Assembly (NCBI GenBank): GCA_036001065.1
Contig: DASYUQ010000143.1
Location: forward strand, 1-37,252
From: Candidatus Methylomirabilota bacterium
Lineage (GTDB): Bacteria > Methylomirabilota > Methylomirabilia > Rokubacteriales > CSP1-6
Direction: 5' to 3'
DNA: 37,252 bases
Each line of letters begins with the position of its first letter. Position 1 is the first letter of the stretch. Below, piece by piece: positions 6,709 to 34,928 of the stretch. A program made the translations under genes and the position numbers. The notes under the pieces are model-generated. The model made no database searches. It saw only the letters and a list, made by a program, of their open reading frames with translations, and was not told the origin of the DNA.

Positions 6709-7539
6709 TCAGCCCTTCAGGCCGGAGAGGCCGAACCCGCTGCGCAAGGCGCGCTGGAGAAGCAGGAAGAGCAGGAAGACGGGGATGGTGGCCAGCACGG
6801 CGATGGCCATCTGCTCGGTGGGCGGGTTGCCGTAGTCCTCGCCGAACCGCACGAGCCCGAGCGGATAGGTCCGGTAGTCATCGTGGGACACGACGGCCAG
6901 CGGCCACAGGAACTGATCCCAGCTGTCGCGGAAGGCGAGGAGGGCCAGCACGGCCAGGGCGGGCCGGCACTGGGGCAGCACGATCTTCCAGAGGATCCGC
7001 AGCTCGCCGGCTCCGTCGATCCGCGCCGCCTCCAGGTAATCGGTGGGGATCTTGAGGATGAACTGACGCATGAGGAACACCCCGAAGGCGTCGATGAGGA
7101 GCGGGCCGGCGATCCCCTGGAGGCTGTTGACCCAGCCCAGCTTGTGGATGATCAGGAAGGTGGGGACGAGCGTGACCTCGAGCGGGAGCATGAGCGTGCT
7201 GAGGATCAAGATCAGGAGGAGCTTGTCCCCGGGGAAGCGGTACTTGGCGAGCCCGTAGCCGGCCAGGGTGCAGAAGACGAGGTTCCCCACCATGACGGCA
7301 GAGGACACGATGACGCTGTTGCGGAAGAAGAGCGGGAACGCCGCCCGCCCCATGGCGTTGGGGTAGTTCTCCGGGTGCCAGACGGAAGGGATCCACTCGG
7401 TGGTGAGCTGGAACATCTTCTCCCCGGCCTGGAACGACGTGGTCACCATCCAGATGATGGGCAGGACGAAGACGACGGTGAGGCCGGCCAGCGGGAGCAG
7501 GCCGAGCCAGGCGGCGTGGGCGGCCAGCCGTCGCCTCAT
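6709..7539 (-). CDS. Carbohydrate ABC transporter permease, MalG type
   Basis: The 276-residue inner-membrane protein has about six hydrophobic segments, including LAGLTVVFVLPIIWMV near the N terminus. The permease EAA loop reads EAARIDGAG near residue 185. The C-terminal LSGLKG is typical of MalG/UgpE permeases. It starts at ATG 7539, overlapping the stop of the MalF-type gene by 4 bases (ATGA), so translation is probably coupled. A much longer open frame upstream is the shadow of that gene. It pairs with the MalF-type permease to form the channel. The ATPase is not encoded here. Confidence 0.92.
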   Translation of the reverse strand: MRRRLAAHAAWLGLLPLAGLTVVFVLPIIWMVTTSFQAGEKMFQLTTEWIPSVWHPENYPNAMGRAAFPLFFRNSVIVSSAVMVGNLVFCTLAGYGLAKYRFPGDKLLLILILSTLMLPLEVTLVPTFLIIHKLGWVNSLQGIAGPLLIDAFGVFLMRQFILKIPTDYLEAARIDGAGELRILWKIVLPQCRPALAVLALLAFRDSWDQFLWPLAVVSHDDYRTYPLGLVRFGEDYGNPPTEQMAIAVLATIPVFLLFLLLQRALRSGFGLSGLKG

Positions 7540-8477
7540 GCCGCCGCGTCCTCCTCGCTCCGCGTGAAGAGACGCATCTGGATGACGGTGAACACCATCG
7601 CGATGGCGAAGAGCACGACCGAGATGGCGGCGGCCCGTCCCATCTTCATGTACGAGAAGCCCGTCTCGTAGATCAGCATGGACAGGACGCGGGTGGCCCC
7701 CCCCGGCCCGCCCCCCGTGATCAGGAAGGGCATGAGGAAGATCCGCGCCGACAGGAGCGCCGCCACCACCACGACGAAGAAAGTGACCGGCATGAGGAGC
7801 GGCAGCGTGATGGACCGGAAGCGCCACACCAGTCCCGCGCCGTCGATGGCGGCCGCTTCGTAGTACTCGCGCGGGATGGCCAGGAGGCCGGCCAGGAACA
7901 CCACCATGAAGTAGGGCGCGAAGCGCCAGACGGTCACCCCGATGATGGCGGGCATGGCGGTCGCGGAGTCGGTGAGCCAGTCGATGCGCCCGACGCCGAG
8001 GGGGCTCAGGATCTGATTGACGAGGCCGTGGGGATGGAAGAGGAACCGCCACACCAGGCACACGGCCACGATGGGCATGATGTTGGTCAGGAACATGCCG
8101 GCCAGGCACAGGCGCCGGCCGCGGCCCCGGCTGTTGACGGCCAGGGCCAGCCCCAGGCCCACGGCCGTGATGAACACCGTGGAGCCGGCGATGTAGACGA
8201 GCGTGTTGAGGAGGGCCTGGATGAAGATGGGATCGCGGCCGAGGCTGGCGTAGTTCTCCAGGCCCACGAACCGCGGCGTCTTCAGCATGTCGTAGCTGGT
8301 GAAGCTCAGGCCCATCGCCCACAGCATGGGCCCGTACTTGAAGACGAGGAAGAAGAGCACGGTCGGCAGCACGAAGCCGAGGCCCCACAGCCGGATGCGC
8401 AGCCGGTAGTGCAGCGGCCAGCCTAGCGGGATCCTGGCCGACAGCGAGCCGGCTCTCGCCTCCGGGATCGAGCTCAC
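7536..8477 (-). CDS. Sugar ABC transporter permease, MalF type
   Basis: The 313-residue inner-membrane permease has hydrophobic segments starting with FVLPTVLFFLVFKYG and the EAA motif EAAAIDGAG that contacts the ATPase. It uses a GTG start at 8477, 13 bases after the stop of the binding-protein gene, and overlaps the next permease by 4 bases. The order binding protein, MalF type, MalG type is the standard CUT1 arrangement for oligosaccharides or glycerol phosphate. The substrate is not evident. Confidence 0.92.
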   Translation of the reverse strand: MSSIPEARAGSLSARIPLGWPLHYRLRIRLWGLGFVLPTVLFFLVFKYGPMLWAMGLSFTSYDMLKTPRFVGLENYASLGRDPIFIQALLNTLVYIAGSTVFITAVGLGLALAVNSRGRGRRLCLAGMFLTNIMPIVAVCLVWRFLFHPHGLVNQILSPLGVGRIDWLTDSATAMPAIIGVTVWRFAPYFMVVFLAGLLAIPREYYEAAAIDGAGLVWRFRSITLPLLMPVTFFVVVVAALLSARIFLMPFLITGGGPGGATRVLSMLIYETGFSYMKMGRAAAISVVLFAIAMVFTVIQMRLFTRSEEDAAA

Positions 8478-10207: not shown

Positions 10208-12564
10208 ATGAGCGAGCGGGGAACCGTCGAGAAGTTCGCCGTCGGACAGTCCGTGCGCCGTCTGGAGGACCCGCGCCTGCTGCGCGGCTTCGGCCGGTAT
10301 TCCGACGACGTAACGCTGCCGCGCCAGGCGCACGCCGTCCTCGTGCGCTCGCCCCACGCGCACGCCCGCATTCAGACGGTCGAGGCGACGGCCGCGGCGA
10401 AGATTGCGGGCGTCATCGCGGTGTTCACCGGCGAGGACCTCGCCGCCGACAGCCTGGGGAACCTGCCTAGCGACACGACGCGCAAGCGACGCGACGGCTC
10501 GCCGGCCTTCGCCACGCCGCGACCGGCGCTCGCGCGCGGGCGCGTTCGCCACGTCGGCGATCCGGTCGCGCTCGTCGTCGCGGAGACGCCCGAGCAGGCG
10601 GCAGACGCGGCGGAGCAAGTGACCGTCGACTACGAGCCCCTGCCGGTGGTGGCGACGATCGCGGAGGCGACGCGCGCCGGAGCGCCGACGGTCTGGGACG
10701 AAGCGCCCGATAACGTGGCCTTCGTGTGGGAGGCCGGCCACCGCGAGGCGGTGGCACGCGCGTTCGAGACCGCGGCGCACGTCACCACCCTCGACTTCGT
10801 CGTCACGCGGGTGGCGGCCGCGCCGCTCGAGCCGCGCGCCGCCGTCGGCGACTACGACCGCCGGACCGGCCGCTACACCCTGCACACGGGCATCCAGGCG
10901 CCGCATGGCCTGCGCTCGCTGCTCGCCGATGTCCTCCGCATACCGCAGAGCCACCTGCGCGTCGTCACCGGGGACGTGGGCGGTAGTTTCGGGATGCGGA
11001 GCGGCATCTACCCGGAGCTGGTGCTCGTCCTCTGGGCGGCCAAGCGGCTGGGGCGGCCGGTGAAGTGGACGTCCAGCCGGCGCGAGGGCTTCGCCACCGA
11101 CGAGCCCGGGCGTGACAACAGGTCGACCGCCGAGCTGGCGCTCGACGCCGAGGGCACGTTCGTGGCCTTGCGCGTAGCGATCGGGCTGAACGTCGGCGCG
11201 TACCTCACGCCGCGCAGCGCGGGGCCGGGCACCAACAACGTCGGGGGCGTGGCGGGCGTGTACACGACGCCGGTCATCCACGTCCGCACCACCGGCGTGT
11301 TCACCAACACGACGCCGACCGGGCCCTATCGCGGCGCCGGTCGCCCCGAGGCCACCTACGCGATCGAGCGGCTGATCGACGTCGCGGCGCGCGAACTGGG
11401 TGTGGACCCATCGAGCTGCGCCGTCGCAACATGATTCCCGCCTCCGCCATGCCCTTCAAGACCGGACTCGTCTTCACCTACGACTGCGGCGATTTCGCCC
11501 GCGGCATGGAGATGGCGCTGGCACTCGCGGATCACGCGGGCTTCGAGAAGCGAAGGGATGCGGCGCGCGCGCGCGGCAAGCTTCGCGGTCTAGGGATCGC
11601 GAATCCGATCGAGGTCGCGGGGGGCCCCTACACCGCGCTCAACCCCGACACCGCCGAGGTGCGTGTCAATCCCGACGGCTCGGTGACGGTCTTCGCCTGC
11701 TCGACCTCGATGGGGCAGGGCAACGAGACGGCGTTCGCGCAGATCGTCAGCGACCGGCTCGGGGTGCCGCCCGAGCGCATCCAGGTGCTGTGGGGCGACA
11801 GCGACGCGCTCGGCGCCGGGCGGGGCAATGGCGGCTCGGGCGCGCTCAGCGTCGGCGGATCCGCGGTGACGCGCGCGACGGAGAAGGTCATCGAGCGCGG
11901 CCGCCGCATCGCCGCGCACCTGATGGAGGCGGCACCCCCGGACGTCGTCCTGCGCGACGCACGGTTCACGGTGGCCGGCACCGACCGCGGCCTGACGCTG
12001 GCCGCCGTCGCCCGCGCCGCCTACCAGCCGAAGCAACTCCCGCCCGGCCTGGAGCCGGGGCTCTCCGAGACCGCGGCGTTCGCGCCGCCCGCGGTCACCT
12101 TCCCGAACGGCACCCAGGTGTGCGAGATCGAGATCGACGAGGAGACGGGCGCCGTGCGCGTGGTGCGCCACACCGTGGTCGACGACGTGGGACGGATGGT
12201 CAATCCCATGCTCGTGAAGGGACAGATCCACGGCGGCGCCGTGCAGGGCCTCGGCCAGGGACTCTTCGAGCTGCTGGCCTACGACGCCGAGACCGGCCAG
12301 CTCCTGACCGGCTCCTTCATGGATTACGCGATGCCCCGCGCGGACGACGTGCCGTTCTTCGAGGTGGACTCGCACGAGGTGCCGACGCAGGTGAACCCGC
12401 TGGGCGCCAAGGGTGTGGGCGAGGCCGGCACGGTGGGCGCGCTGCCCGCGCTGATGAACGCCATCAACGACGCGCTGGCGCCGCTCGGCGTCCGCCACCT
12501 CGACATGCCGGTCACACCCGCGCGCGTCTGGCGCGCGATCCGGACCGCGCGGGCCGCGCGCTGA
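10208..12564 (+). pseudogene. Xanthine dehydrogenase-family molybdopterin-binding subunit, split by a one-base frameshift
   Basis: Two abutting frames, 10208-11434 and 11431-12564, together make one molybdopterin hydroxylase large subunit of about 785 residues, the usual length. The first carries the a/b hammerhead domain, GDVGGSFGMRSG and GPYRGAGRPEATYA. The second resumes with NMIPASAMPF and has SMGQGNE and the active-site region GAKGVGEAGTVGALPA with the catalytic Glu. A base is missing near 11407-11410: the expected ELRRRN is read in another frame as SSCAVAT. The break creates ATGA, so the second half could still be translated separately. No Fe-S or FAD subunit genes are adjacent. It may be a sequencing error, a real mutation or a functional split. 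Confidence 0.8.
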
Positions 12565-13414: not shown

Positions 13415-14080
13415 ATGACGAAGAAGAAGGGCACGGGGCTGTTGATGGTCTGGGCCGACGTCCCGGCGGAGAAGGAAGAGGAATTCAATCGCTGGTACAA
13501 CAAGGAGCATCTCGCCGAGCGACTTTCGATACCTGGGTTTCTCGGCGGGGCCCGCTACGAAGCGGTGAAAGGTGGACCGAAGCATCTCGCCTACTATGAG
13601 CTGGAAAGCCCCGCGGTGCTGGAGAGCGAGGCGTACAAGCGCGTCCAGGCCCATCCCACTGAAGGGACCAAGCGCTACGGCCCAGGGGTCATCGGCACAA
13701 CCTACATCCGGAACGTCTATACGATGATCCATCCGACGACATTGACGCCGGCGGCGGCTCAGAGCGAGATGGCGCCCGCGCTGCAGATCGGGCGCATGGA
13801 CGTGCCGCCCGAGGTCGATAAGGAATTCAACACCTGGTACAACACCATCTACGTGCCCAACTACGAGAAGGTCCCCGGCGTGATTCGTGGCCGGCGCTAC
13901 CGCGCCATGACCGGCACGCCCACGTATCTCACCCTCTACGAGTTCGAGCACCCCAAGGTGTCGGAGAGCGCCGCGTGGAAAGAGCAGCAGAACGCCTCGC
14001 CGGTGTCGGCCGGCATGCGAGCACACATGCGCCACGCTACAGGCTCTCCCGGCATCTACGTCATGACGTTTCAGCTGTGA
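13415..14080 (+). CDS. Tandem EthD-like dimeric alpha/beta-barrel protein
   Basis: The 221-residue protein consists of two similar halves. The first has MVWADVPAEKEEEFNRWYN and IPGFLGGARYEAV with YYELESP. The second has IGRMDVPPEVDKEFNTWYN, VPGVIRGRRYRAM and LYEFEHP. Each half is about 95 residues and looks like one ferredoxin-like EthD/ABM-type domain, so the pair may form the barrel within one chain. The first gene of a co-directional row; its TGA overlaps a possible GTG start of the deacetylase. The start has AAGGAG upstream. Members are small-molecule binding or oxygenase-like proteins; no reaction can be assigned. Confidence 0.75.
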   Translation: MTKKKGTGLLMVWADVPAEKEEEFNRWYNKEHLAERLSIPGFLGGARYEAVKGGPKHLAYYELESPAVLESEAYKRVQAHPTEGTKRYGPGVIGTTYIRNVYTMIHPTTLTPAAAQSEMAPALQIGRMDVPPEVDKEFNTWYNTIYVPNYEKVPGVIRGRRYRAMTGTPTYLTLYEFEHPKVSESAAWKEQQNASPVSAGMRAHMRHATGSPGIYVMTFQL

Positions 14081-14109
14081 AGGCGCTTCACGATCTCGGG
14101 CGGCCAGGA

Positions 14110-15315
14110 ATGTACGATCTCGTGCTGAAGGGGGGAACGGTCCTGGACCCGTCGAGCGGCCTCGACGGTGTCCTCGACGTCGCGGTTCAGAACGGGGTGA
14201 TCGCGCGCATCGCGCCGGCAATCGCGCCCGCCGAGGCAGCGCGGGTGATCGAGGTCGGCGGGAAGCTCGTCACCCCGGGGCTGATCGACGTCCACGCCCA
14301 CGTCTTCGAGGGCATCAACCGGACCGGCGTGAATCCCGACCTGGGCGGCGTCTACGCCGGCGTGACCACCATCGTCGACGCCGGGAGCGCCGGGGCGGCC
14401 ACCTTCGGCGGCTTCCCCCGGCACATCATCCCGCACTGCCAGACCGAGATCGTGCCGTTCCTCCACATCTGCCAGACCGGGCTGGCGACGATCCCCGACA
14501 TCATCGCGGAGAGCAGCGTGAACCTCGACGACACGCTGCGGGTCGCCCGCCAGCACCAGGGGCTCATCGTCGGGATCAAGGCTCGCATGGTCTCACCGGC
14601 GCTCGAGATCATGGGCATGGAGATGCCGCGGCTGGCCAAGCGCGCCGCGCGCGAGTGCGGCATCAAGCTCATGGTCCACATCGGCGACACCGAGAAGCGC
14701 TACGACCCGAAGGTGATCCACCCCCTGCTGGCGCTGCTCGAGCCCGGCGACATCCTCACCCATTATTTCACGCCCAACCCCGGCGGCGTCCTCGACGGCA
14801 ATGGGAAGCTGGTGCCGGAAGCGCGCGAGGCCGCCGACCGGGGCGTGTGGTTCGACACCGCGCACGGCCGGATGAACTTCAGCTTCGACGTCGGCCGCCG
14901 CATCATCGACCAGGGGCTGCTCCCGCACTGCATCAGCACCGACCTCACCGTGCCCGGGCGCCTCACCACCGTGCACAGCATGACCGAAATGATGACGCGC
15001 TTCCTCGGTCTCGGCTTCACGCTGCCGCAGGTGGTGACGATGTCCACCGCCAACCCGGCCAAGGCCATCGGCGCCGAGAAGCGGCTGGGAAGCCTCGCGG
15101 TGGGACGTCAGGCCGACATCTCGGTGCTGGAAATGCAGGAGGGGGACTGGGTGGTCTACGACATCCTCCGCTCGGGCCTGCGCGTCGATCGCGCGCTGGC
15201 CCCTCACCTGACGGTGAAGCGGGGCAAGGTCTTCACTCCCGACTTCGGCCCGCGCCCGTGGGGCTGGTGGCCCGATCGCGCGCCGGCCAAAGTGGTGGCA
15301 GGAGGGTGCTGCTAA
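14110..15315 (+). CDS. Amidohydrolase/deacetylase family metallohydrolase with C-terminal GGCC tail
   Basis: The 401-residue protein is of the dihydroorotase/deacetylase branch of the amidohydrolase superfamily. It begins MYDLVLKGGTVLDP, has GLIDVHAHVF with the first two metal His, KARMVSPALE with the likely bridging Lys, MVHIGD with the third His, and STDL with the catalytic Asp. The end TANPAKAIGAEKRLGSLAVG is standard. It then extends through a Trp/Pro-rich stretch to finish VVAGGCC. An alternative GTG at 14077 overlaps the previous stop but adds an unusual N terminus. The GGCC ending recurs in the VOC protein at 17605. The substrate is unknown. Confidence 0.85.
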   Translation: MYDLVLKGGTVLDPSSGLDGVLDVAVQNGVIARIAPAIAPAEAARVIEVGGKLVTPGLIDVHAHVFEGINRTGVNPDLGGVYAGVTTIVDAGSAGAATFGGFPRHIIPHCQTEIVPFLHICQTGLATIPDIIAESSVNLDDTLRVARQHQGLIVGIKARMVSPALEIMGMEMPRLAKRAARECGIKLMVHIGDTEKRYDPKVIHPLLALLEPGDILTHYFTPNPGGVLDGNGKLVPEAREAADRGVWFDTAHGRMNFSFDVGRRIIDQGLLPHCISTDLTVPGRLTTVHSMTEMMTRFLGLGFTLPQVVTMSTANPAKAIGAEKRLGSLAVGRQADISVLEMQEGDWVVYDILRSGLRVDRALAPHLTVKRGKVFTPDFGPRPWGWWPDRAPAKVVAGGCC

Positions 15316-18197: not shown

Positions 18198-20459
18198 CTA
18201 GCGGGGGCCCCTGGCCAGCGGTTCCACGGTCACGCGGGCCGTCCCGGCATTGTTGCGGTAGAAGACGGTCCGCAGCCCCGGTAACTCGATCACCGCGTCG
18301 TTGACGAAGAGGAACAACTCGCCGGACGTCCGCGCCCCGATCTGGCTCACCAGGCCCCGCGTCGTGGCCGGGCCGGGGCCGGTGTCGACCGGAGTCAGCG
18401 CGTAGTCGTCGTTCCCCTGAGAGCCGATGCGCGCGATGGGCCGGAACCAGGACTCTCCCATCCAGCGCCGGAACGGCAGGCCGAGGTACATCGGCGCCGT
18501 CATCGCCTCGAGTCCGAAGCCCGTGAGCTCGGGCGGGACGGCGATCGCGCCGTCCTTCCACGGCACGAGCGGCTCGATCTTGATGCGGTAACGCCTTCCC
18601 GCCTCGAGGCGTACGCCGCTCGCCCAGCAGAACGCGTCCGTCCGGAACCCGTCCCTGAGGATGGGGCCCGTCGCCACCGCCGCTGTCCCGGTGCCCGTGC
18701 ACACGAATCCCAGCGAGCTTGTAGTCGCGAACGCCACCCGGCTGAGGCCGGCGAACAGCGCGAAGACGATGACCGCCGCGAAGAACGTCGGCAGCACGTG
18801 GCGCTTCCACGTGCGGAAGAGCCGGCGGTACAGGGGGTGCGTGCGAAGGCGGTAGATCCAGTCATCGGGCCACGCGCCCGCCGTGGTCCTGGCCTGCCAG
18901 AGGCTCCGCATCCGGTCGCTGATCCGGTATTCGAGGCGACGCCCCGCCACCATCAGAGCGACGACGATGACCGCCCACACCGCGAACCACCCGGGGTTGG
19001 CGGCGAACGTCTCCACCCAGTCCTCCACGGCCTCGGGCAGCACGGCGGCGGCGGCGCGGATGGGTCCGGCGAGGAAGCTCCAGGCGCTCGCCCGGGGCGG
19101 GTGACTCGTGTGAATCCAGGGAAACAGCGCCAGGTACGCCGACGCGGCCACGGACGCAAAGTACGCGAGGCGGCGGCACCACACGAGGTTCCAGATTCGC
19201 TCCTGCAAGTGGGCCCGGCTCACCGCCTCATCGCTGGTCTCGTACGGATTGGCCTTGCCCTGGAGGATGTCGCCCCCGGCCGTGACCACCGCGTAACGGT
19301 CGGGAAGCCCGACGGGGGCGTAGCCGCGCGCGCCCCTCCTCAGCCGATGGAAGACGCTCTCGTGGATCTTCGGGAGGTCGATGGTCACCTCGTCGTTGCG
19401 CTCGCTCGAGAACTTGTCGCGGGTGAGGTCCGCGAGCTTGCGGGGGCAATAGCGGTAGTACGCCGCCAGTCCGTACCGCGAGTCGTACAGGCGTCCATCC
19501 TCGTCTGACGCCAGCCGCACCGCCTCGATCGCCTCCCTGTCCTTCTTGAACTCCAGCCCGCATGCCCTGGCCTCGCCCATCATCCAGTGCAGGGACACGT
19601 GAGCGAGGCCGTCGTCGGGATAGCCGCCACCGACGTTGGAGTGCACGCCGGCGAACCACACCTGGCTGATCCTCTCGTTACCGATGTTGGAGACCACCTT
19701 CTCGCCCCGCTCCGTCCACAGCACCGGGTGAAAGGTCGTCCGCTCGTCGTCGAGGGCGAGGGCGTGACGCGCGCGCTCCACCTTGCCGTGAAGCTTGCGG
19801 TCGGGCAGGGAGAGCGGCCACAGCCACAGGCTCACTCCGCGGGTCATCTCCTCGATGGGGAGACCGTAGGCGGCCACGGAGTCCCACAGGCCCAGGAATT
19901 TGATAACGGGCACTTGGCGGTTCTTCGCCGGCTCGTACGCGGAGTGGCGCAGGAGACGGTTCCACCCGTCGATGACGGGGTCGCGGAGGGCGCGCAGGGA
20001 GCGGACGAGCAGGCCGAGCGCCGTGGTATATCGCCGGCGATAGCTTCGGTAGGCCGCAGCCGCGTCACGGTGGAGCTGGGCCTCGGACTCTACGGGCACC
20101 AACCCTTCGTTGGCGACGAGGCCCATCAGCACCCGGATGGTGAAGGCGCCGCGGCTGAAGCCGAAGCCGTAGAGCTCCGCGTCGTCCTGCCAGTTCCGGC
20201 ACACGAAGCGGTAGAGGTCGAGGACGTTGCGCTTGAGGCCCCAGCCGAAGGCGCCGCCGAGCATGGCGAGGGGCTTGAAGGTCGAGCTGCCCACGCCATC
20301 GTCGTACAGCGCGACCTGCCGGCCGTTCGAGAGGTCGAGCGCCTGGTACAGCCGCCAGACGTTGGTGCGCCACACCTTGGCGGCACTGTTACCCGTGCCG
20401 TCGGACAGCACGACGATCCGCTTGATCTTTTTACCGTGGATGGCCCCTTTTGCCGTCAT
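18198..20459 (-). CDS. DUF2235 alpha/beta hydrolase with C-terminal membrane segments
   Basis: The 753-residue protein has an N-terminal DUF2235 domain, the fold of Tle1-type type VI phospholipase effectors and related uncharacterised hydrolases. It opens with RIVVLSDGTGNS, has the nucleophile elbow GFGFSRGA with Ser102, Asp193 in GLWDS and His273 in AGVHSNVGGGY, giving a complete Ser-Asp-His set. Hydrophobic segments near residues 430-449, 491-506 and 556-577 are followed by a 175-residue C-terminal region of unknown fold. No VgrG, PAAR, chaperone or immunity-like gene is adjacent, so a role as a secreted toxin is not supported here. The start at 20459 has GGGAGG upstream. Membrane-anchored lipase activity is an inference. 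Confidence 0.85.
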   Translation of the reverse strand: MTAKGAIHGKKIKRIVVLSDGTGNSAAKVWRTNVWRLYQALDLSNGRQVALYDDGVGSSTFKPLAMLGGAFGWGLKRNVLDLYRFVCRNWQDDAELYGFGFSRGAFTIRVLMGLVANEGLVPVESEAQLHRDAAAAYRSYRRRYTTALGLLVRSLRALRDPVIDGWNRLLRHSAYEPAKNRQVPVIKFLGLWDSVAAYGLPIEEMTRGVSLWLWPLSLPDRKLHGKVERARHALALDDERTTFHPVLWTERGEKVVSNIGNERISQVWFAGVHSNVGGGYPDDGLAHVSLHWMMGEARACGLEFKKDREAIEAVRLASDEDGRLYDSRYGLAAYYRYCPRKLADLTRDKFSSERNDEVTIDLPKIHESVFHRLRRGARGYAPVGLPDRYAVVTAGGDILQGKANPYETSDEAVSRAHLQERIWNLVWCRRLAYFASVAASAYLALFPWIHTSHPPRASAWSFLAGPIRAAAAVLPEAVEDWVETFAANPGWFAVWAVIVVALMVAGRRLEYRISDRMRSLWQARTTAGAWPDDWIYRLRTHPLYRRLFRTWKRHVLPTFFAAVIVFALFAGLSRVAFATTSSLGFVCTGTGTAAVATGPILRDGFRTDAFCWASGVRLEAGRRYRIKIEPLVPWKDGAIAVPPELTGFGLEAMTAPMYLGLPFRRWMGESWFRPIARIGSQGNDDYALTPVDTGPGPATTRGLVSQIGARTSGELFLFVNDAVIELPGLRTVFYRNNAGTARVTVEPLARGPR

Positions 20460-20584
20460 CGTGGCCTCCCCTGGACGGATCCCCGAATCGCGGAGACGCA
20501 TACTATCCCATTCCTTGGACCCGGCCTAGCGTGCGATCATCCACTCGGCTTGTCGGCGGCTACCGCCAGGCCTCGGAGGTCATC

Positions 20585-21513: not shown

Positions 21514-21532
21514 GCGCCGGCGAAGCCGGCGC
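21514..21532. repeat. Dispersed hairpin repeat, copy 1
   Basis: GCGCCGGC-GAA-GCCGGCGC is a perfect 8-bp stem with a 3-base loop. The same 19 bases, with similar flanks (TTGCGCC... before, GCT-TGA/CGA after, and a TCGGAG-G-GGCC block upstream), occur at 31694-31712. It belongs to a small intergenic repeat family in this genome. Confidence 0.65.
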
Positions 21533-26432: not shown

Positions 26433-27302
26433 TCATGTCGTCGGCTTCTCCACGGTCGCGCGCTCGACCGCCAGCAGCTTCTCGAGCTCGATCGTGGCCA
26501 GCATGTCTCTTTCGATCGGGCCCCACTCCGGCTTCGTCGTGTGCTGGGCGCCGAACCCGTCGGCGAGGTCCTGGTAGACCTTCTTCCATGCCGCATACGC
26601 CGCCAGCAACGGCGTCTGCGGGTCGGCGACGATCTTATAACCGAGGCCGCCGAGATCCCGAAGCGTCATGCCCAGGCCGGCCAGTCCGCCGCGTGACGTG
26701 AGATACATCAGCGGCCCGCCGAGCCGCTCGGCGATGGCGCGCAGCTGCTCCGGCTTGTGGGCCATCGAGAGGAGCAAGACGTCGGCCCCGGCCTTTCGGT
26801 AGGCTTCGCCGCGGCGGAGAGCGTCGTCCAGGGTGCTGGCCCGCATCGCATTGGTGCGCGCGATGATGACAAAGTCGTGGCGGCGGCGGGCCGCCACGGC
26901 CTCCTTGACCTTGGCCGCCATCAGCTCCATGGGGATCATGTGCTCAATCCCGATGTGATGATGTGCCCGCTTCGGCACGAGCTGGTCCTCGATCTCGATC
27001 GCCGCGAAGCCGGCCGCCTCGCTCATGCCGATCGTCCGGTGCATGTGCATCGGGTCGCCGTAGCCGCAGGCGCCGTCGAGAATGAGCGGGAGCGACGAGA
27101 CGGCGTGGATCTCGATGGCCGCCTGGCACATCTCGGTCAGGTTCAGATTGGCCTCGAGCGAGACCTTCTGGTAGCCCGTCGCGCCGCCGCCGAGATAGCC
27201 GGCCGAGAAGCCGGCGGCCTCGGCCATCCTGGCCATCAGCGGATTCAGGACCAGCGGCGCGGTCACGGGCAGCGGCCCCTGCATCAGAGCGGTGAGCGCC
27301 AT
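26433..27302 (-). CDS. Isocitrate lyase/PEP mutase superfamily protein (catalytic Cys replaced)
   Basis: The 289-residue TIM-barrel protein resembles 2,3-dimethylmalate lyase and carboxyphosphonoenolpyruvate mutase-like members. It has APLVLNPLMARMAEAAGF, YLGGGATGY, the metal strand LDGACGYGDP and IEIEDQLVPKRAHHH, then IIARTNAM. The loop that in lyases reads K-R-C-G-H is here K-R-A-H-H, so the general-acid cysteine is missing. Full length, ATG start at 27302. It follows the alpha/beta hydrolase by 12 bases. It may be an oxaloacetate hydrolase/decarboxylase-like enzyme or a lyase with altered chemistry. Confidence 0.87.
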   Translation of the reverse strand: MALTALMQGPLPVTAPLVLNPLMARMAEAAGFSAGYLGGGATGYQKVSLEANLNLTEMCQAAIEIHAVSSLPLILDGACGYGDPMHMHRTIGMSEAAGFAAIEIEDQLVPKRAHHHIGIEHMIPMELMAAKVKEAVAARRRHDFVIIARTNAMRASTLDDALRRGEAYRKAGADVLLLSMAHKPEQLRAIAERLGGPLMYLTSRGGLAGLGMTLRDLGGLGYKIVADPQTPLLAAYAAWKKVYQDLADGFGAQHTTKPEWGPIERDMLATIELEKLLAVERATVEKPTT

Positions 27303-27314
27303 GAGCGTCCCTGC

Positions 27315-28166
27315 TCACCCGAGCTGCTTGTGGACGAACTCGATGATCCGCTTCCTCGCCTGCTCCGCGGTAGGCGAATCCTTCTTGGCGAACCCTTCGC
27401 CCTCCGCCTCGTACAGCTCCAGCTCGAGCTGGCCTCCCGCCTTGCGGTAATAGGCGAGGAAGCGGTCGAGGTCGGCGCGGGGATGCGCGACGTCGCGGGT
27501 GGCTTGGATGTACAGCACGGGGGGCAGCTCGACCCGCTCGCCGCGCTCGAGGGCGAGCACCGGGTTGCCCTCGGCCATCGCCTCTTCGGTCTGCCAGTAT
27601 TGGTCGTGATCCGGCAGGACGCGGTCTATGACATCCGGGTACGGTTTGCCGCCCTCGCGGAGCTTCTTGGCATAACGATAGCGCGCCAGCGGATCGATGA
27701 CCGGCCAGCACAGGACGGCGCAGCGCACGCTGGCATCGACAGCCGCCGCGCCAGCGGGCAGCGGAACCACCGAGTATCGCGGATCGCGCGGCCTCATCGC
27801 GGCCAGCATGGCCTGGTGGGCGCCGCTCGAGGTGCCCATGAGCCCCATCCGGTCGGGGCGAGTGCCCAGCTCCGCGGCCCGGGTCTTGAGCCAGCGGATC
27901 GCGTAATTGATGTCCACCAGCGAGGCCGGGTACGGCGCCTCGGGCGGCATGCGGAAATCCAGCGCCGCCACCACCACGCCGCTTTTCGCCAGTGGTTCGT
28001 TGAGTGGGGTGTCGTCCAGACGGTCCTTCCGGCACCACGCGCCGCCATGCACCTCGACGATGAGCGGGAACGGCCCGGTGCCCCGCGGCTTGAAGAGACG
28101 AGCCAGCAGGGGCGTGTCCCCGTGGCGGACATATTCGACGTCTTCGATGTGGATCTCATGAGTCAT
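27315..28166 (-). CDS. Alpha/beta hydrolase (hormone-sensitive-lipase-like esterase)
   Basis: The 283-residue cytoplasmic serine hydrolase has the oxyanion HGGAW (residues 40-44), the strand VVVAALDFRM, and the nucleophile elbow GTSSGAH with Ser113. ATRDVAHP carries the acidic residue. A C-terminal His is less clear; candidates lie near FVHKQLG. It belongs to the BD-FAE/HSL-type esterase group that acts on small esters or amides. ATG 28166 has GGAGG upstream. It is flanked by a collapsed binding-protein gene and a PEP-mutase-like gene in the same direction. Confidence 0.88.
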   Translation of the reverse strand: MTHEIHIEDVEYVRHGDTPLLARLFKPRGTGPFPLIVEVHGGAWCRKDRLDDTPLNEPLAKSGVVVAALDFRMPPEAPYPASLVDINYAIRWLKTRAAELGTRPDRMGLMGTSSGAHQAMLAAMRPRDPRYSVVPLPAGAAAVDASVRCAVLCWPVIDPLARYRYAKKLREGGKPYPDVIDRVLPDHDQYWQTEEAMAEGNPVLALERGERVELPPVLYIQATRDVAHPRADLDRFLAYYRKAGGQLELELYEAEGEGFAKKDSPTAEQARKRIIEFVHKQLG

Positions 28167-28370: not shown

Positions 28371-29354
28371 CTAGTTCAGGGGCTTGCCCATCTCCCGCAG
28401 CACCTCCTGCAGGAGGTCGCGGGCCACGAACTGCTCGACGTCGGGCAACGGCTTGTCCTTGGGCCAGCCGAGCTCGGGCGTGGCGACCGAGTCGAAGAGC
28501 TGCCGGAAAAGATCCTTGGGGATCTGCGGCGCGAACTTGTCCTGCAGCTGGTTGTAGAGGTTCTCGGCGACGCGCGCGTCCTGGATCTGGAAGTACTTCT
28601 GGATGATCTCCACGGTCCCCACCCTCTCGGTGCGGATGTAGTCGGCAGCCCTGGCCACGGCCCGGATGAAGCGCTTCATGACGTCGCGCCGGTCGCGGAC
28701 GTTGTCCCGGTGGGTGCTGATGGTGCCGCCCAGCCGCGGCAGGTGGTCCCCCGCCCGCACCAGGATCTTGAGGCCCTCGGCCTCGGCCCGAGCCGCGTGG
28801 GGGAACGAGAGTCCCGCGCCCTGGATCGAGCCGGCAATGATCGCGGCGATCCGCTCCGGCTCGCCGCGGAAGTTGATGACCTTGTAGTCCTTCCCGGCCT
28901 CCATCTTGAAGAACTTGCTGAGGACGACGACCAGCTCGCTGTAGTCCGCCGACCCGGGACGGCCTAATCCCAGGGTCTTGCCCCGCAGATCCTCGACCTT
29001 CCGGATGTCGGCCGTCGTGGTGAGCGTCCACTGGGACACCAGCGACTCACCCACCACGAAGACGAGGGGAGCCCCTTTGAGCATCGCCTCGGTGCTGCCG
29101 CCCGGGATCGGGGCGAAGTCGATCTCCTTGGCGATGGTGGCCCGGACGATCTCGCCGCCCGTCATGCTCACGAACTCCGCGTCGAGCCCCTCGGCCTTGA
29201 AGAGCCCGCGGTCCATGGCCACGTAGGTCGGGATGTGGAAGCCGCTGGCGCCCGTGGTGCGGCCCACCTTGATCTTGAGCGCCTGGGCCGACGCCACGCC
29301 GCTTCCGAGCAAGGCCGCGATGAGCACCAGCGCCGCCGCGCACACGTTCTTCAT
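28371..29354 (-). CDS. NMT1/SsuA-type ABC transporter substrate-binding protein
   Basis: The 327-residue periplasmic binding protein has a Sec signal (AAALVLIAALLGSGVASAQA). The mature part opens with LKIKVGRTTGASGFHIPTYV, then MDRGLFKAEGLDAEFV, and DLRGKTLGLGRPGSADYSE, the standard first and second lobes. Members bind sulfonates, nitrate, pyrimidine-like or aromatic acids. No permease or ATPase is adjacent. The start has GGAGG upstream. It follows the molybdopterin dehydrogenase by 19 bases and may deliver the substrate of this gene row. Confidence 0.9.
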   Translation of the reverse strand: MKNVCAAALVLIAALLGSGVASAQALKIKVGRTTGASGFHIPTYVAMDRGLFKAEGLDAEFVSMTGGEIVRATIAKEIDFAPIPGGSTEAMLKGAPLVFVVGESLVSQWTLTTTADIRKVEDLRGKTLGLGRPGSADYSELVVVLSKFFKMEAGKDYKVINFRGEPERIAAIIAGSIQGAGLSFPHAARAEAEGLKILVRAGDHLPRLGGTISTHRDNVRDRRDVMKRFIRAVARAADYIRTERVGTVEIIQKYFQIQDARVAENLYNQLQDKFAPQIPKDLFRQLFDSVATPELGWPKDKPLPDVEQFVARDLLQEVLREMGKPLN

Positions 29355-29373: not shown

Positions 29374-31668
29374 CTACGCCGCGCCGGCGTCGCGGAGCGC
29401 GCGCCAGACGCGCTCGGGGGTGAGCGGGAGATCCTTCACGCGGGCGCCGGTGGCGGCGAAGAGGGCGTTGGCGATGGCCGGCGCGACCGGGATGATGCTG
29501 CCCTCGGCGACGCCCTTGGCGCCGTGAGGGCCCGGGCCTCCCCCGCCCTCCACGATCACCGCATCGAACGCCTCCGGCAGATCCGAAAAGAGCGGGAGCC
29601 GGTAGTCGATCATGTTGCCGTTCACGAGCTGGCCGTCGTCGTAGACCAGCCCCTCGAAGAGCGCGGGGCCGAGGCCCTGCATGGCGCCGCCGAGGTCCTG
29701 CCCCTCGACGCCGGCCGGGTTGATGGCGCGTCCCGGGTCGGAGAGCGAGACATAGCGATGGACCGCGATGGCCCCCGTCTCGCGGTCGACCGACACCCGC
29801 GCCGCCCCGAGCCCGATCTCCCAGAAGCTGGCGGTCGCGCCGAGCGCGTTGAGCCCGGTGGCCGGGCGCTGATAGCCGTGACCGATCAGCTCCCCGCCCG
29901 CGTCGCGGAAGAAGCGCTGGATGACCTCACCGAATCCGAGCCGCCGGCCGCCCGCGCTGACGCCTCCGCCCTCGAGCCGGCACTGGGCGGGGCTCACGTC
30001 GAGCGCCTCGGAGGCGATGGCCCGGACCTGGTCGGCCACGCGCTGAGCCGCCTCCTGCACGGCGTGGCCCAGCAGCGACGTCGCGCGGCTGGCGTTGGTG
30101 CGCTGGTCGAAGGGCGTGACGCCGGTGTCGGGCGCGGTGACGATCACGCGGGACGGGTCGATCCCGAGCTCGGCGGCGGCGATCTGGCCGAGCACGCTCT
30201 GCACGCCCTGGCCGATCTCGGCCGAGCTGGCGAGCACGGTGGCGCTCCCGTCCTGATGGAGCCTCACGATCGCCGTGGACGACGTCCGCGTCCCCCCGCC
30301 GTCCTTGATCGCGCAGGCCAGGCCCACGCCCTCACCCGGCGCGCGCGCCTCGCGCCATCCGACCTCCTTGGCGAGGATGTCCAGCGCCTGATCCATATCG
30401 CTGTCGATCGGCCGATCACCCGGCGCATACTCCTCATCGCGCTTGAGCAGATTTTTCATCCGCAGTGCGAACGGGTCCATACCGACCTTCGCGGCGATGA
30501 TGTCCATCTGCGACTCGTAGGCCCAGCAGACCTCCGGGGTGCCGAAACCGCGATAGGAGCCGGCCGAGACCGTGTTGGTGAACACCGCGTAGGAGTTCAC
30601 CTCGACGTGGGAAATGCGATAGGGGCCGATGATCCGGTAGCCGGCCTTCTTCGAGACGCGCGAGCCCTGGTCGGTGTAGGCGCCGGTGTCGAGGTGGATC
30701 TCCGCGCGGCGGCCCACGATGGTGCCGTCCTTCCCCACCGCGGTCTGGATCCTCACGCGGCCGCCGTTCCTCACCACCGTCCGCGCCGTGTCCTCCGACG
30801 AGAAGACGACCCGCACGGGCCCGCCGGCCTTCCGCGAGAGCGCGGCGGCGATCGGCGCCGCCGGGATCAGCTCCCGGCTCCCGAACGCGCCGCCCACGTA
30901 GGGGACGATGATCCTCACGCGGCTTTGCGGCAAACCGAACATCTCCGCCAGCGACTGCCGCATCGCGAACGGGTACTGCGTGCCCGTCCAGACCGTCAGG
31001 TCGCTCCCCTGGTGGTGGGCGATCGCGCCGAGCGGCTCGAGGGGAAAGTGGTGGACGCTCGGCAACGTGAACGTATCGTCGAAGACGAAATCCGCCTGGC
31101 GAAACGCGTCGTCAGGGTCCCCGCGGCGATAGTTGAAGTGGTGGCAGATGTTGCGCGTGACGTCGGGCTTGATGTCCTGGACGTCGGGGAAGAGCGTCGA
31201 GCGCGGCCGATCCACGTGGAGCTGGGGGGCGCCGGCTGCCAGCGCTTCGGCGACGTTCCGCACCACCGGCAGGGGCTCGTAGTCCACGACGATGCGCCGC
31301 GCCGCTTCTTCGGCGGTCAGCGCATCGACCGCCGCCACCGCGGCGACGGGCTCCCCCGCGAAGCGGACGCGCTCGATGGCCAGCAGCGGCTGGTCCCTCA
31401 CCGCCTGGCCGAAGTAGGGATCGATGTCGGTGAGGTCGGCGCCCGTGATGACCGCGATCACGCCGGGGAGCCGCTCGGCCTGCCTGGTGTCGATTCCCAG
31501 GATCCGCGCGTGAGGATACGGACTCCGGAGCACCTTGCCCTCGACCATCCCGGGGATCCTGAGATCGACGGTGTAGCGCGTGCGGCCGGTGACCTTGTCC
31601 CGCGCGTCCTGGCGCTCGAGCGACCGGCCGATCAGTGAGCGGCCCTCGACGCGGCCGGAATCGCTCAT
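29374..31668 (-). CDS. Xanthine dehydrogenase-family molybdopterin-binding subunit
   Basis: The 764-residue large subunit is a molybdenum hydroxylase that hydroxylates an N-heterocycle or aldehyde with water as oxygen source. The hammerhead domain is at the N terminus (GRTRYTVDL, KVLRSPYPHARI). It has YVGGAFGSRE, the SYRGFGTPE loop, the dipyrancofactor-binding SAEIGQGVQ and the active-site Glu in GPHGAKGVAEGSIIP. No CoxL-type Cys active-site loop was seen. It is full length. It lacks neighbouring Fe-S and FAD subunit genes, which the enzyme normally needs. Between it and the LLM gene upstream lies a hairpin repeat. Confidence 0.92.
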   Translation of the reverse strand: MSDSGRVEGRSLIGRSLERQDARDKVTGRTRYTVDLRIPGMVEGKVLRSPYPHARILGIDTRQAERLPGVIAVITGADLTDIDPYFGQAVRDQPLLAIERVRFAGEPVAAVAAVDALTAEEAARRIVVDYEPLPVVRNVAEALAAGAPQLHVDRPRSTLFPDVQDIKPDVTRNICHHFNYRRGDPDDAFRQADFVFDDTFTLPSVHHFPLEPLGAIAHHQGSDLTVWTGTQYPFAMRQSLAEMFGLPQSRVRIIVPYVGGAFGSRELIPAAPIAAALSRKAGGPVRVVFSSEDTARTVVRNGGRVRIQTAVGKDGTIVGRRAEIHLDTGAYTDQGSRVSKKAGYRIIGPYRISHVEVNSYAVFTNTVSAGSYRGFGTPEVCWAYESQMDIIAAKVGMDPFALRMKNLLKRDEEYAPGDRPIDSDMDQALDILAKEVGWREARAPGEGVGLACAIKDGGGTRTSSTAIVRLHQDGSATVLASSAEIGQGVQSVLGQIAAAELGIDPSRVIVTAPDTGVTPFDQRTNASRATSLLGHAVQEAAQRVADQVRAIASEALDVSPAQCRLEGGGVSAGGRRLGFGEVIQRFFRDAGGELIGHGYQRPATGLNALGATASFWEIGLGAARVSVDRETGAIAVHRYVSLSDPGRAINPAGVEGQDLGGAMQGLGPALFEGLVYDDGQLVNGNMIDYRLPLFSDLPEAFDAVIVEGGGGPGPHGAKGVAEGSIIPVAPAIANALFAATGARVKDLPLTPERVWRALRDAGAA

Positions 31669-31693: not shown

Positions 31694-31712
31694 GCGCCGG
31701 CGAAGCCGGCGC
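31694..31712. repeat. Dispersed hairpin repeat, copy 2
   Basis: This is a perfect copy of the 19-base hairpin at 21514, with a shortened upstream TCGGAGGGGGCC block (31672-31683). It lies between the LLM gene stop (31754) and the start of the molybdopterin dehydrogenase (31668). It would fold in the message and could separate the two transcripts. Confidence 0.6.
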
Positions 31713-31753: not shown

Positions 31754-32737
31754 TCACGCCCCCATCACCGCCGAGGCGAAGCGGCGAAGCGTCGCCTCGC
31801 GATCCCCGCCGCCGGCGCCGTAGGGGATGATCGCGATCTGCCTGATGCCGCTCTCGCGGAGACGCTCCACCCCGGCGTGAATTTCCGCCGGCGTTCCCGC
31901 CACCGCGAACTTGTCGACGAGCCAGTCGGGGACGACCATCGCCTGGCTCGCCCCGGGATCCATGTGCTGATAGTAGTTGTAGGCGCGCCGGATCTCGTCG
32001 ACGACCTTCTGCTCGTCCGGGGCGAGCGTGTAGGGCAACGGATGCACGACCACGCGGGCCACGTGGGCCTTCACCACCTCCCGCGCGCCGGCATCGGCCA
32101 CCGCGCAGGGGACCCAGAGCACGAGGTCGATGTCGTCGAGCGCGCGCCCGGCGGCCCGCGCCCCGGCGCCGATCGTCTCGATCGCCTGTCGCACCCTGGG
32201 CGGATCGACGCCGACGAGGACGATCACCCCGTCGGCGATCCGCCCGGCCAGCTCGAGCATCTTCGGCCCGCTCGCCGCCAAGTAGATCGGGACGCGCTCG
32301 CGAGGGCCGTGCTTGAGCCGGATCGTCCCCGTGTCGATGCGGACGTCCTGGCCGGCCATCAGCTCCCGCATCCGGCGGACGGCCAGCTCGAAATCGGCGA
32401 GGCGCGCCTGCTTCCTGCCCATCGTCTCGACCGCGCTGTCGCCGAGCCCGAGGCCCAGGATCAGCCGGCCGGGGTACGCCTCCTGGAGCGTCGCGAACGC
32501 GCTGGCGACGACGGACGGATCGCGGGTGAGGACGTTGGTCACGCCGGTGCCGAGCACGACCCTCGACGTGCTGAGCGCGGCGGCGGCGAGGTTCACGTAG
32601 GCCTCACGCCAGATCAGGTGCGAATCGCCGACCCAGACGTGGCTGAAGCCGAGCGTCTCGGAGACCTTCGCGAGGTGGACCATGGTCGGCAGCGGATCGG
32701 TCGGAAAGAGGCCGACGCCGAACGAGAGGCGGCTCAC
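31754..32737 (-). CDS. LLM-class F420/flavin-dependent oxidoreductase
   Basis: The 327-residue TIM-barrel protein opens with LSFGVGLFPTDPLPTM and VSETLGFSHVWVGDSHL, and has VVLGTGVTNVLTRDPSV and GLGLGDSAVETMG, all typical of the F420-dependent methylenetetrahydromethanopterin-reductase-like branch. The GTG start overlaps the enamidase stop (GTGA), so the two are translationally coupled. No F420 synthesis gene is in the window, so the cofactor is unproven. Third gene of the LLM-enamidase-LLM unit. Confidence 0.88.
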   Translation of the reverse strand: MSRLSFGVGLFPTDPLPTMVHLAKVSETLGFSHVWVGDSHLIWREAYVNLAAAALSTSRVVLGTGVTNVLTRDPSVVASAFATLQEAYPGRLILGLGLGDSAVETMGRKQARLADFELAVRRMRELMAGQDVRIDTGTIRLKHGPRERVPIYLAASGPKMLELAGRIADGVIVLVGVDPPRVRQAIETIGAGARAAGRALDDIDLVLWVPCAVADAGAREVVKAHVARVVVHPLPYTLAPDEQKVVDEIRRAYNYYQHMDPGASQAMVVPDWLVDKFAVAGTPAEIHAGVERLRESGIRQIAIIPYGAGGGDREATLRRFASAVMGA

Positions 32738-33924
32738 ACGCGGCCTCCCGTGATCGTCACCGGACGCTCCGGCGGCGGCGTCTGCTCGCTGCGACCGGCG
32801 ACCCTCAGGTGGCCATCGATCAGCACGGCGGAGATGCCCGGCAGGTCGCCCTTGCCGAACGAATCGAGCGCGTCGCTGGCGACCGAGCCCTTGATCCGAT
32901 CGAGCAGCACGATGTCGGCGGGCCGACCTTCCTCCAGGATCCCCTGAGGCAGGCCGTGGGCCCGGGCGACGTTGCCGGTGGCCATGGCGATGGCAGTCTC
33001 GGGCGGCACCCCGGCCACGGAAGAGACATAGGCGATCTCGCGGAGCATACCCCGCGGCAGCACGCCGGTGCCGCCGGGGGTGTCGGTTCCGATGAGTACG
33101 CGATCGAAGGCGCCGCTGGCGCCTGCCACCCGCACGAGCGTCAGAACCATGCGTGGATTGCCGGAGCTGCAGATCTCCAGCGCGCATTCGGTCTCGGCCA
33201 CGAGACGCTCGACCTCCTTCTCGGGCATCGGGATCGGCCCGCCGGTGGCGTGGCCGATGATGTCGGGTTTCAACCGCTTCACGATGTCGATGCCGGCGAC
33301 CTGGCTCACGCCCGAGCGCGAGACGCCGCCGGAATGGATCTTGACCTTGATCCCGCGCTTGCGCGCCCACGCCACGTAGCGCTCGGCCTCGCCGTTGGGC
33401 AGCAGGCCGTAGTCGTAGAAGATGAACTTGACCAGCCGGATCCCCACCGCTTGAAGATCGACGAAGTCGCTCTCGGTGAGGCCGGGCACGAGCAGGAGGG
33501 TGCCGGCGTAGACCCTCACGCCGGAGGGGCGCAGATTGTCCCAGCAGCGCTTGGCGAGGTGGGCGAGCGCCATCGCGGTGCGGGCGTCGGGGGGCGTGGG
33601 CAGACCCGGCAGATGCAGCTCGCCGGCGGAGATCAACGCCGTCACGCCGCCGTGCATGTAGTGGGTGATCCAGCCGAGCGCGTTCTGGGCCGGCGTGAAG
33701 TCGCCGAACGTCGGATGCGAGTGCGAGTCGATCAGCCCCGGCACCGCGGTGATCCCATGAGCATCGATGGCGATGTCGGCCGCGCGGGTGATGCCCGAGC
33801 CGATCTCGCGGATCAGGCCGCCCTCGAGATAGATAGAGTCGGCGCGGCGGAGGGGCCGCGCACAGTCCCCCGTCGCGAGGGCGCCGATGTTGCGGATGAG
33901 GCAGCTCGGGGCGGCGGGGCTCAC
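32734..33924 (-). CDS. Enamidase-like amidohydrolase
   Basis: The 396-residue protein matches the enamidase of nicotinate fermentation (6-oxo-tetrahydronicotinate ring opening) along its length by my reading: CLIRNIGALATGD, ADSIYLEGGLIREIG, GLIDSHSHPTFGDFTP (metal His pair), KIHSGGVSRSG, GHATGGPIPMPEKEVERL, FDRVLIGTDTPGGTG and ISAVLIDGHL. The metal site and catalytic Asp are in place. It would hydrolyse a cyclic enamide or lactam. The start is GTG, overlapping the upstream LLM stop by 4 bases, and the end overlaps the next LLM start. Members outside anaerobes act on unknown substrates, so the exact reaction is an inference. Confidence 0.8.
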   Translation of the reverse strand: MSPAAPSCLIRNIGALATGDCARPLRRADSIYLEGGLIREIGSGITRAADIAIDAHGITAVPGLIDSHSHPTFGDFTPAQNALGWITHYMHGGVTALISAGELHLPGLPTPPDARTAMALAHLAKRCWDNLRPSGVRVYAGTLLLVPGLTESDFVDLQAVGIRLVKFIFYDYGLLPNGEAERYVAWARKRGIKVKIHSGGVSRSGVSQVAGIDIVKRLKPDIIGHATGGPIPMPEKEVERLVAETECALEICSSGNPRMVLTLVRVAGASGAFDRVLIGTDTPGGTGVLPRGMLREIAYVSSVAGVPPETAIAMATGNVARAHGLPQGILEEGRPADIVLLDRIKGSVASDALDSFGKGDLPGISAVLIDGHLRVAGRSEQTPPPERPVTITGGRV

Positions 33925-34928
33925 GTCGCCAGGGCGCCGGCCGGGCGCAGGATCTCTTCCGCGATCATCTGGAGGTACTCGATGCGCGCCTTGGTCTCGC
34001 GCGGCAGGCTGTAGATCGTGAACCCGATGTGGTCGAGCCCTGTCGCCCGGGCCCGCGCGATGGTTTCGACGCAGTCGGCCGGCGAGCCGCAGACCGTCCA
34101 GCTCTCGAGCGGCACGTCGAAGCTGAGCTGGAGCTCCATCATCGTCGACTCTTGCATCTCCCAGGCCCGGTACATCGCGAACGTCTTCTCGAGGTAGGGC
34201 CGCGCCGCCGCCGCGGCCGCCTCGCGGCTGGCGCCGACGATGAGGGCCCGCGAGGCGCCGACCGTCCCCGGCGTCTGGCCCGCTTCCTGGCGCGCTTCGC
34301 TGAACACGACCGCGAGCTTGGCCACCGCGTCCCAGGCCATCTGGGGGCCGAAGAGGACTCCGTCGGTCAAGCGCGCCGCCCTGCGGGTGGCGCCGACGCT
34401 CTGGGCCCCCATTTCGAGCGGTGGGTGGGGCTGCTGGTAGGGCCTGAAGCCCATCCGCCCCGCGGTCACCCGCGTGTAACGGCCCTGGAACGTCACCTCC
34501 TCGCCCGCCCAGAGCCGCTTCATCAGCGCCAGGGACTCCTCGAGCTTGGGCACGCGGTCACCGCGTGAAAGCCCGACGGTCTCGAGCTCCTTCTCGCGGT
34601 AGCCGATGGAGACGCCGACATCCAGGCGGCCGTGGGTGATGTGGTCGAGCGTCGCGATGTTTTCGGCGGCGTCGACCGCGGCCACGAGCGGCAGCAGCAG
34701 CATCGAGGTCTTGAGCCGCATCCGGCCCGTCTCCGGCGCCAGCCGGGCCAGCGTCGGGAAGGGCTGCGGCCAGACCGTGGGATGGGACAGGAGGTGGTGA
34801 CCGATCGAGACCCAGGCGTAGCCCAGCCGGGACGCCGCGCCCACGACCTCGATCACCTCGTCGATGATCTGGGTCGGAGGGCGGTCGGTCGGACTCCAGA
34901 ACGGCGTGAGATGGAAGCCGATGCGCAT
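33921..34928 (-). CDS. LLM-class flavin-dependent oxidoreductase
   Basis: The 335-residue luciferase-like protein opens with RIGFHLTPFWSPTDRPP and ASRLGYAWVSIGHH, has LKTSMLLLPLVAAVDAAEN and GRLDVGVSIGYREKELE, and ends with the CGSPADCVETI segment before the last helices. It is first in the 34.9-25.0 kb minus-strand row. Its stop overlaps the GTG of the enamidase-like gene, so the oxidoreductase and ring-opening hydrolase are likely made together. The cofactor (FMN or F420) and the substrate are unknown. Confidence 0.88.
   Translation of the reverse strand: MRIGFHLTPFWSPTDRPPTQIIDEVIEVVGAASRLGYAWVSIGHHLLSHPTVWPQPFPTLARLAPETGRMRLKTSMLLLPLVAAVDAAENIATLDHITHGRLDVGVSIGYREKELETVGLSRGDRVPKLEESLALMKRLWAGEEVTFQGRYTRVTAGRMGFRPYQQPHPPLEMGAQSVGATRRAARLTDGVLFGPQMAWDAVAKLAVVFSEARQEAGQTPGTVGASRALIVGASREAAAAAARPYLEKTFAMYRAWEMQESTMMELQLSFDVPLESWTVCGSPADCVETIARARATGLDHIGFTIYSLPRETKARIEYLQMIAEEILRPAGALAT

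Follow-up and report, generated by a model that had tools for sequence, protein, structure and literature searches.

The window analysed here, a contig of 37,252 nucleotides (DASYUQ010000143.1, assembly GCA_036001065.1) from the 239-contig, 4.46-Mb genome of a Candidatus Methylomirabilota bacterium with completeness rated 100%, encodes an enamidase-like amidohydrolase (AH) directly followed by LLM-B, a Mer-like, luciferase-type oxidoreductase of the PF00296 (LLM) family. We tentatively read this gene pair, with confidence a little short of even, as a module of two enzymes, probably linked to F420, in which a small nitrogen-containing ring of the lactam, enamide or imide type is opened by reduction and hydrolysis. 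The ring-opening part of this reading draws on enamidase as the only strong structural relative of AH and on the five metal-site positions kept in AH (all but Glu164), and the F420-linked part on the fold of LLM-B and on the presence of F420 genes. Further support comes from the independent pairing of another LLM subfamily with Glu-type enamidase homologues and a molybdenum (Mo) hydroxylase.

Conservation and arrangement of the AH/LLM-B pair

Conservation was counted only where a contig continues past AH, giving 27 loci (26 from genome contigs plus L082, from a Methylomirabilota genome of another family). LLM-B lay directly after AH on the same strand in all of them (27/27), at a spacing of -4 to about +270 bp, and its identity outside the family was 61-70%. 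With 44 PF00296 matches in the 4.46 Mb of the window genome and the pair retained at every locus, the association is more than chance would provide. The holders were Methylomirabilota together with metagenome-assembled genomes (MAGs) labelled Binatia/Deltaproteobacteria and Acidobacteria. Not every phylum label can be trusted: a 'Dehalococcoidia' locus (L031) is nearly identical to a Binatia-labelled one (L030), probably through a binning error, and was not taken as a separate phylum. A second PF00296 oxidoreductase, LLM-A, and a Mo-hydroxylase large subunit accompany AH in 5/5 Methylomirabilota genomes with an orthologue of it; no other locus with the pair has them. Conservation of the neighbours with the amidohydrolase, which an earlier note on this DNA had proposed as a check, thus holds for LLM-B across phyla and for the other two in five Methylomirabilota genomes.

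The three genes lie on the minus strand. LLM-A (33921..34928; ATG 34928 to TGA 33921; 335 aa) is TIGR03619-like and scores under the TIGR03619 cut-off, AH (32734..33924; GTG 33924 to TGA 32734; 396 aa) matches PF07969/PF01979, and LLM-B (31754..32737; GTG 32737 to TGA 31754; 327 aa) is the conserved partner of AH. The PF00296 scores in Pfam were 153 bits for LLM-A and 196 bits for LLM-B. LLM-B truly starts at the overlapping GTG at 32737; the start at 33370 in a mechanical list of open reading frames (ORFs) lies upstream of the region of homology. GTGA overlaps, read directly from the sequence, join the LLM-A stop to the AH start (33921..33924) and the AH stop to the LLM-B start (32734..32737), so that the LLM - enamidase-like - LLM trio and both of its 4-base junctions are as the earlier note described. 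The AH/LLM-B overlap recurs in L009, L010, L011 and L013, and the LLM-A/AH overlap in L009-L011; the latter is lost in L082 (genome G119). Both overlaps are ordinary. Because 4-base overlaps are common in operons, and the window holds a further one at 11431-11434, they alone indicate just likely co-transcription. In the MAG locus L011 (= L052), LLM-A (about 7137-8001) is broken over several frames, by decay or assembly error.

AH is an enamidase homologue of a separate clade

Enamidase (EC 3.5.2.18) of Eubacterium barkeri (PDB 2vun), a ring-opening enzyme of nicotinate (vitamin B3) fermentation, was the only strong match to AH among all PDB sequences (phmmer E=1.4e-91; next 4e-5), with about 40% identity over the full length (residues 8-390), which supports the earlier view of AH as an enamidase homologue. 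A fold search with Foldseek returned enamidase again (E=2e-25). SsnA was not among the best NCBIfam models of AH, which matches enamidase instead. The nearest relatives of AH, at 93, 86 and 85% identity, occur in Candidatus Rokubacteria genomes. By alignment, the enamidase positions His67, His69, His193, a fourth His and an Asp, which we take to be the metal-binding residues, are all kept in AH (His68, His70, His197, His225 and Asp281) and its orthologues. Lys166 of AH occupies the beta-4 position of enamidase Glu164 and is invariant in all AH orthologues (motif LVKFIFYDY); a Glu164 equivalent ('GEVG'/'GEIG') was found in the E. barkeri protein, in Sulfitobacter and Comamonadaceae proteins linked to the ferredoxin-type 6-hydroxynicotinate reductase (Hnr), and in the group-2 proteins described below. 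Lys166 is probably a carboxylated metal-bridging lysine, as in hydantoinases.

The enamidase-family tree comprised three groups: K1, with AH and its orthologues (support 100/100); K2, with Lys-type plasmid proteins and some Rokubacteria proteins (99/97); and E, with Glu-type proteins including E. barkeri enamidase (92/91). Grouping K1 with E. barkeri enamidase alone was rejected (approximately unbiased (AU) test, p=0.0026). AH therefore falls outside the enamidase clade, the outcome that the earlier note had named as refuting its reading, and its separate position together with the lysine in place of Glu164 makes 6-oxo-tetrahydronicotinate an unlikely substrate.

LLM-B resembles F420-dependent Mer

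LLM-B matched Mer, the F420-dependent methylene-tetrahydromethanopterin reductase, in sequence with E=1.6e-42 and about 30% identity. The best fold matches of its structural model (predicted local distance difference test, pLDDT, 85.5) were all F420-dependent Mer (template modelling score, TM, 0.83), followed by F420-dependent FGD and Adf, and in the LLM tree it grouped with Mer (93/91), apart from monooxygenases. Against the curated Mer model it scored 168.8 bits and fails the cut-off of 348.7. Glu6 of Mer, the residue mutated in 8qq8, is replaced by Gly9, which is invariant in LLM-B orthologues; the 'TDH' motif of Mer has an approximate counterpart in Asp38 and His40 of LLM-B, one residue being inserted. 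CofD-type proteins were identified in all AH/LLM-B genomes tested, CofH exceeded its cut-off in 8/8 of such genomes, and the CofD of the window genome exceeds the NCBIfam equivalog cut-off. The presence of these genes permits F420 use by LLM-B, without proving it, and together with the fold it is in keeping with an F420-linked enzyme. LLM-A occupies a separate branch of the LLM tree and weakly resembles TIGR03619 and the monooxygenase RslO1 (7bip, its best solved match); RutA is among the weak matches.

In the mechanism that we propose, F420H2 would supply the hydride with which LLM-B reduces a C=C or C=N bond of the ring, and AH, an amidohydrolase with a binuclear metal site and probably a carboxylated lysine, would then hydrolyse the reduced cyclic amide or enamide, so that hydrolysis would pull the ring reduction forward. 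In Methylomirabilota, LLM-A and the Mo-hydroxylase large subunit extend the unit and may ready the ring through hydroxylation. A similar coupling is known for the flavoenzyme YgfK and the amidohydrolase SsnA, where yanthine is reduced and then opened, with product formed only when the two are coupled and none with YgfK alone; SsnA neighbourhoods of Chloroflexota have, instead of YgfK, a luciferase-family F420 enzyme (PMC12507026). Reduction of endocyclic imines is also a known activity of luciferase-like hydride transferases that depend on F420 (PMC8498797).

A second LLM pairing in Rokubacteria

Of 95 genomes of the phylum that were scanned, 50 encode enamidase-family proteins. Just five of these holders carry AH orthologues; most of the other proteins (group 2) are Glu-type and lie inside the enamidase clade. 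We read 25 group-2 loci (L083-L086, L092, L094-L113) out to 8-19 kb. These revealed a cluster of a LIV-type ABC transporter, a Glu-type enamidase homologue, PF06684, an LLM and a Mo-hydroxylase large subunit, with the transporter, PF06684 and the large subunit present in most loci. In 20/25 loci the LLM is full-length and belongs to a single conserved family (74-91% identity to the L083 member); L092 holds part of such an LLM at a contig end, two other loci end too early to tell, and L085 and L086 lack it. This LLM exceeds the TIGR03619 F420-family cut-off and is related to LLM-A and LLM-B only at superfamily level in the tree. With this third LLM in a separate cluster, LLMs have been paired with enamidase-type hydrolases at least twice.

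Hnr, used as query, had no match in the group-2 loci. The Hnr-linked plasmid clusters share PF06684 and the enamidase homologue with group 2, and one of them (L046) also a Mo hydroxylase; by gene content, the LLM therefore takes the place of Hnr in group 2. Neither the window genome nor three of the four related genomes that carry an AH orthologue had PF06684; the fourth, G119, has a group-2 protein besides its AH orthologue. The literature on PF06684 consists of structures and a guess at amino-acid metabolism. It is possible, and on balance somewhat doubtful, that F420-linked LLM reductases were independently recruited at least twice to enamidase-family hydrolases (in several phyla as Mer-like LLM-B beside Lys-type AH, and in many Rokubacteria as a TIGR03619-type LLM beside Glu-type homologues and a Mo hydroxylase), which would constitute an undescribed O2-independent, Hnr-free route of N-heterocycle reduction and opening.

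Molybdenum hydroxylase and other neighbouring genes

The large subunit of a Mo hydroxylase of the xanthine dehydrogenase family (29374..31668, minus strand; 764 aa; PF01315, PF02738, PF20256) lies 85 bp beyond LLM-B, with both molybdenum cofactor (MoCo)-binding domains present. For the Fe-S partner subunit, no Fer2_2 match was found on the window contig and 13 were found elsewhere in the genome. In L091, genes separate the Mo hydroxylase from the substrate-binding protein; these had no Pfam match, and no partner subunits were found there. The 85-bp gap contains a perfect minus-strand hairpin, GCGCCGGC-TTC-GCCGGCGC (31694..31712), and this repeat bears on whether the Mo hydroxylase shares a transcript with LLM-B. 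The hairpin sequence GCGCCGGCTTCGCCGGCGC (31694-31712, also 21514-21532) has 116 genome copies at ≤1 mismatch, compared with 1 for a reversed control, and constitutes a family resembling repetitive extragenic palindromes (REP-like). The earlier note had included the downstream Mo hydroxylase in its proposed route: the gene is real, but it lies outside the conserved core beyond Methylomirabilota, with the repeated hairpin intervening.

Further along the minus strand are an NMT1/SsuA-type substrate-binding protein (28371..29354), which adjoins the Mo hydroxylase in L009-L011 too, an alpha/beta hydrolase (27315..28166) and a PEP-mutase/isocitrate-lyase family protein (26433..27302). The last two are retained in the same-genus genome G114, and their membership of the unit is uncertain. 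Elsewhere on the plus strand of the window, a second Mo-hydroxylase large subunit is encoded by two ORFs with a 4-base overlap (10208-11434, MoCoBD_1, and 11431-12564, MoCoBD_2), representing a real split or a frameshift, and a DUF4286 protein is followed by another amidohydrolase (13415-15315). Agrobacterium vitis likewise has a DUF4286 gene next to its enamidase homologue (L045). On the minus strand, 18198-20501 encodes a 767-aa protein with a type VI secretion system (T6SS) Tle1-like phospholipase catalytic domain (PF09994). Among the other loci, several from Deltaproteobacteria-labelled MAGs (L018, L019, L021, L022) have genes for zinc uptake (ZnuA, ABC-3 permease, ZIP) upstream of the pair; weighed as a functional clue, these genes may just reflect shared synteny. 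A radical SAM protein with a LAGLIDADG intein is encoded in L034 (3180-5267).

Alternative explanations and significance

Several observations weigh against a reductive, F420-linked module. Outside Methylomirabilota, the neighbours of the pair vary (zinc transport, aminotransferases, UbiD, ABC transporters) and indicate no single pathway. CofD and CofH are a lineage trait of these bacteria and not specific to the unit. The AlphaFold model of AH is of moderate confidence (pLDDT 61, with the metal-loop region 63-104 below 50), so no active-site geometry was taken from it and the role of Lys166 was inferred from sequence. PF00296 also includes O2-using monooxygenases, and for this reason reduction by LLM-B is not established. 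The main rival is oxygenative opening, in which LLM-A and/or LLM-B, as reduced-flavin monooxygenases, would use O2 to cleave a ring of the pyridine or pyrimidine type and AH would hydrolyse the N-formyl enamide so formed, as in the RutA pathway; the trigonelline (TgnB) and pyridine (PyrA) pathways follow the same oxygenative pattern. Such monooxygenases occur in PF00296, the best solved match of LLM-A (RslO1) and the presence of RutA among the weak matches fit them, and the host lineage includes soil bacteria. We nevertheless consider this account unlikely, since LLM-B, the conserved partner, groups with F420-dependent Mer and not with monooxygenases, and the pair has no conserved flavin reductase gene next to it. 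Slightly less probable is a role of the pair on an amide or ureide that is not heterocyclic, or in detoxifying a metabolite, in which case the N-heterocycle idea over-reads the enamidase homology. Amidohydrolases readily change substrate (the ring-opening dioxygenase KpiC shares 28% identity with enamidase; PMC7356986), and the variable neighbours fit such a role; arguing against it are the constant association with a redox enzyme and the second cluster, in which an enamidase-type hydrolase, an LLM and a Mo hydroxylase again occur together.

The earlier note had favoured a true nicotinate route, in which AH would act on 6-oxo-1,4,5,6-tetrahydronicotinate and an LLM would replace Hnr. Hnr was absent from the window genome and 11 others tested, whereas both positive-control plasmids matched, so some other reductase would be needed; this part of the proposal stood, and the adjacent Mo hydroxylase and the identity between AH and enamidase also agree with it. 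The position of AH outside the enamidase clade, the lysine at the Glu164 position in every orthologue and the absence of the Mo hydroxylase from the pair's surroundings outside Methylomirabilota make this route very unlikely for the window unit. Overall, the nicotinate interpretation is only partly supported. The group-2 cluster of Rokubacteria is a better fit for the idea that an LLM, next to an enamidase and a Mo hydroxylase, substitutes for Hnr. The least probable reading makes LLM-B a bacterial Mer-type enzyme of C1/pterin metabolism, with AH acting on a formyl or pterin derivative: LLM-B shares the Mer fold and scores 169 bits against the Mer model, but this is far under the curated cut-off, and the invariant Gly at the Glu6 position argues in the same direction.

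Rokubacteria and Binatia are abundant in soils and the subsurface and carry F420 genes and many LLM enzymes; a review reports no experiments on the role of F420 in such lineages (PMC8498797). The conserved pair of an LLM and a putative ring-opening hydrolase offers a small, expressible two-enzyme test case, through which a bacterial F420 enzyme could be given a function and N-heterocycle breakdown could be shown to have an alternative to ferredoxin-type ring reductases.

Comparison with known systems

KpiC of Arthrobacter sp. IN13, from 4-hydroxypyridine catabolism, is by description an amidohydrolase distantly related to enamidase that acts on a pyridine ring; unlike the AH/LLM-B pair, it is oxygenolytic and partnered by an FAD monooxygenase. 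Mer (1f07, 1z69, 8qpl) shares its fold, about 30% identity and tree grouping with LLM-B, which differs in having Gly for Glu6, a score below the cut-off and another gene context. The plasmid clusters of Sulfitobacter (L046) and Comamonadaceae (L048) place an enamidase-family protein beside a ring reductase (Hnr), as the window unit would with its LLM, and have a Mo hydroxylase in Sulfitobacter; they differ in being Glu-type, in their ferredoxin-type reductase and in carrying PF06684 and UPF0280 genes (PF06684 is missing from the window genome). Relative to the enamidase/Hnr system of E. barkeri, AH belongs to a separate clade, has Lys for Glu164 and has an LLM partner, with Hnr absent, whereas full-length homology, fold, the His/His/His/His/Asp positions and the proposed logic of reducing and then opening are shared. 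The reductive uric acid pathway of XdhD, YgfK and SsnA differs in that AH is of the enamidase family and not SsnA, and neither HyuA nor the later genes turned up in the window; this pathway and its Chloroflexota variant are like the route proposed for the Methylomirabilota unit in combining a Mo-enzyme, reductive dearomatisation and opening by an amidohydrolase, an LLM being reported to replace the usual reductase in the variant (PMC12507026).

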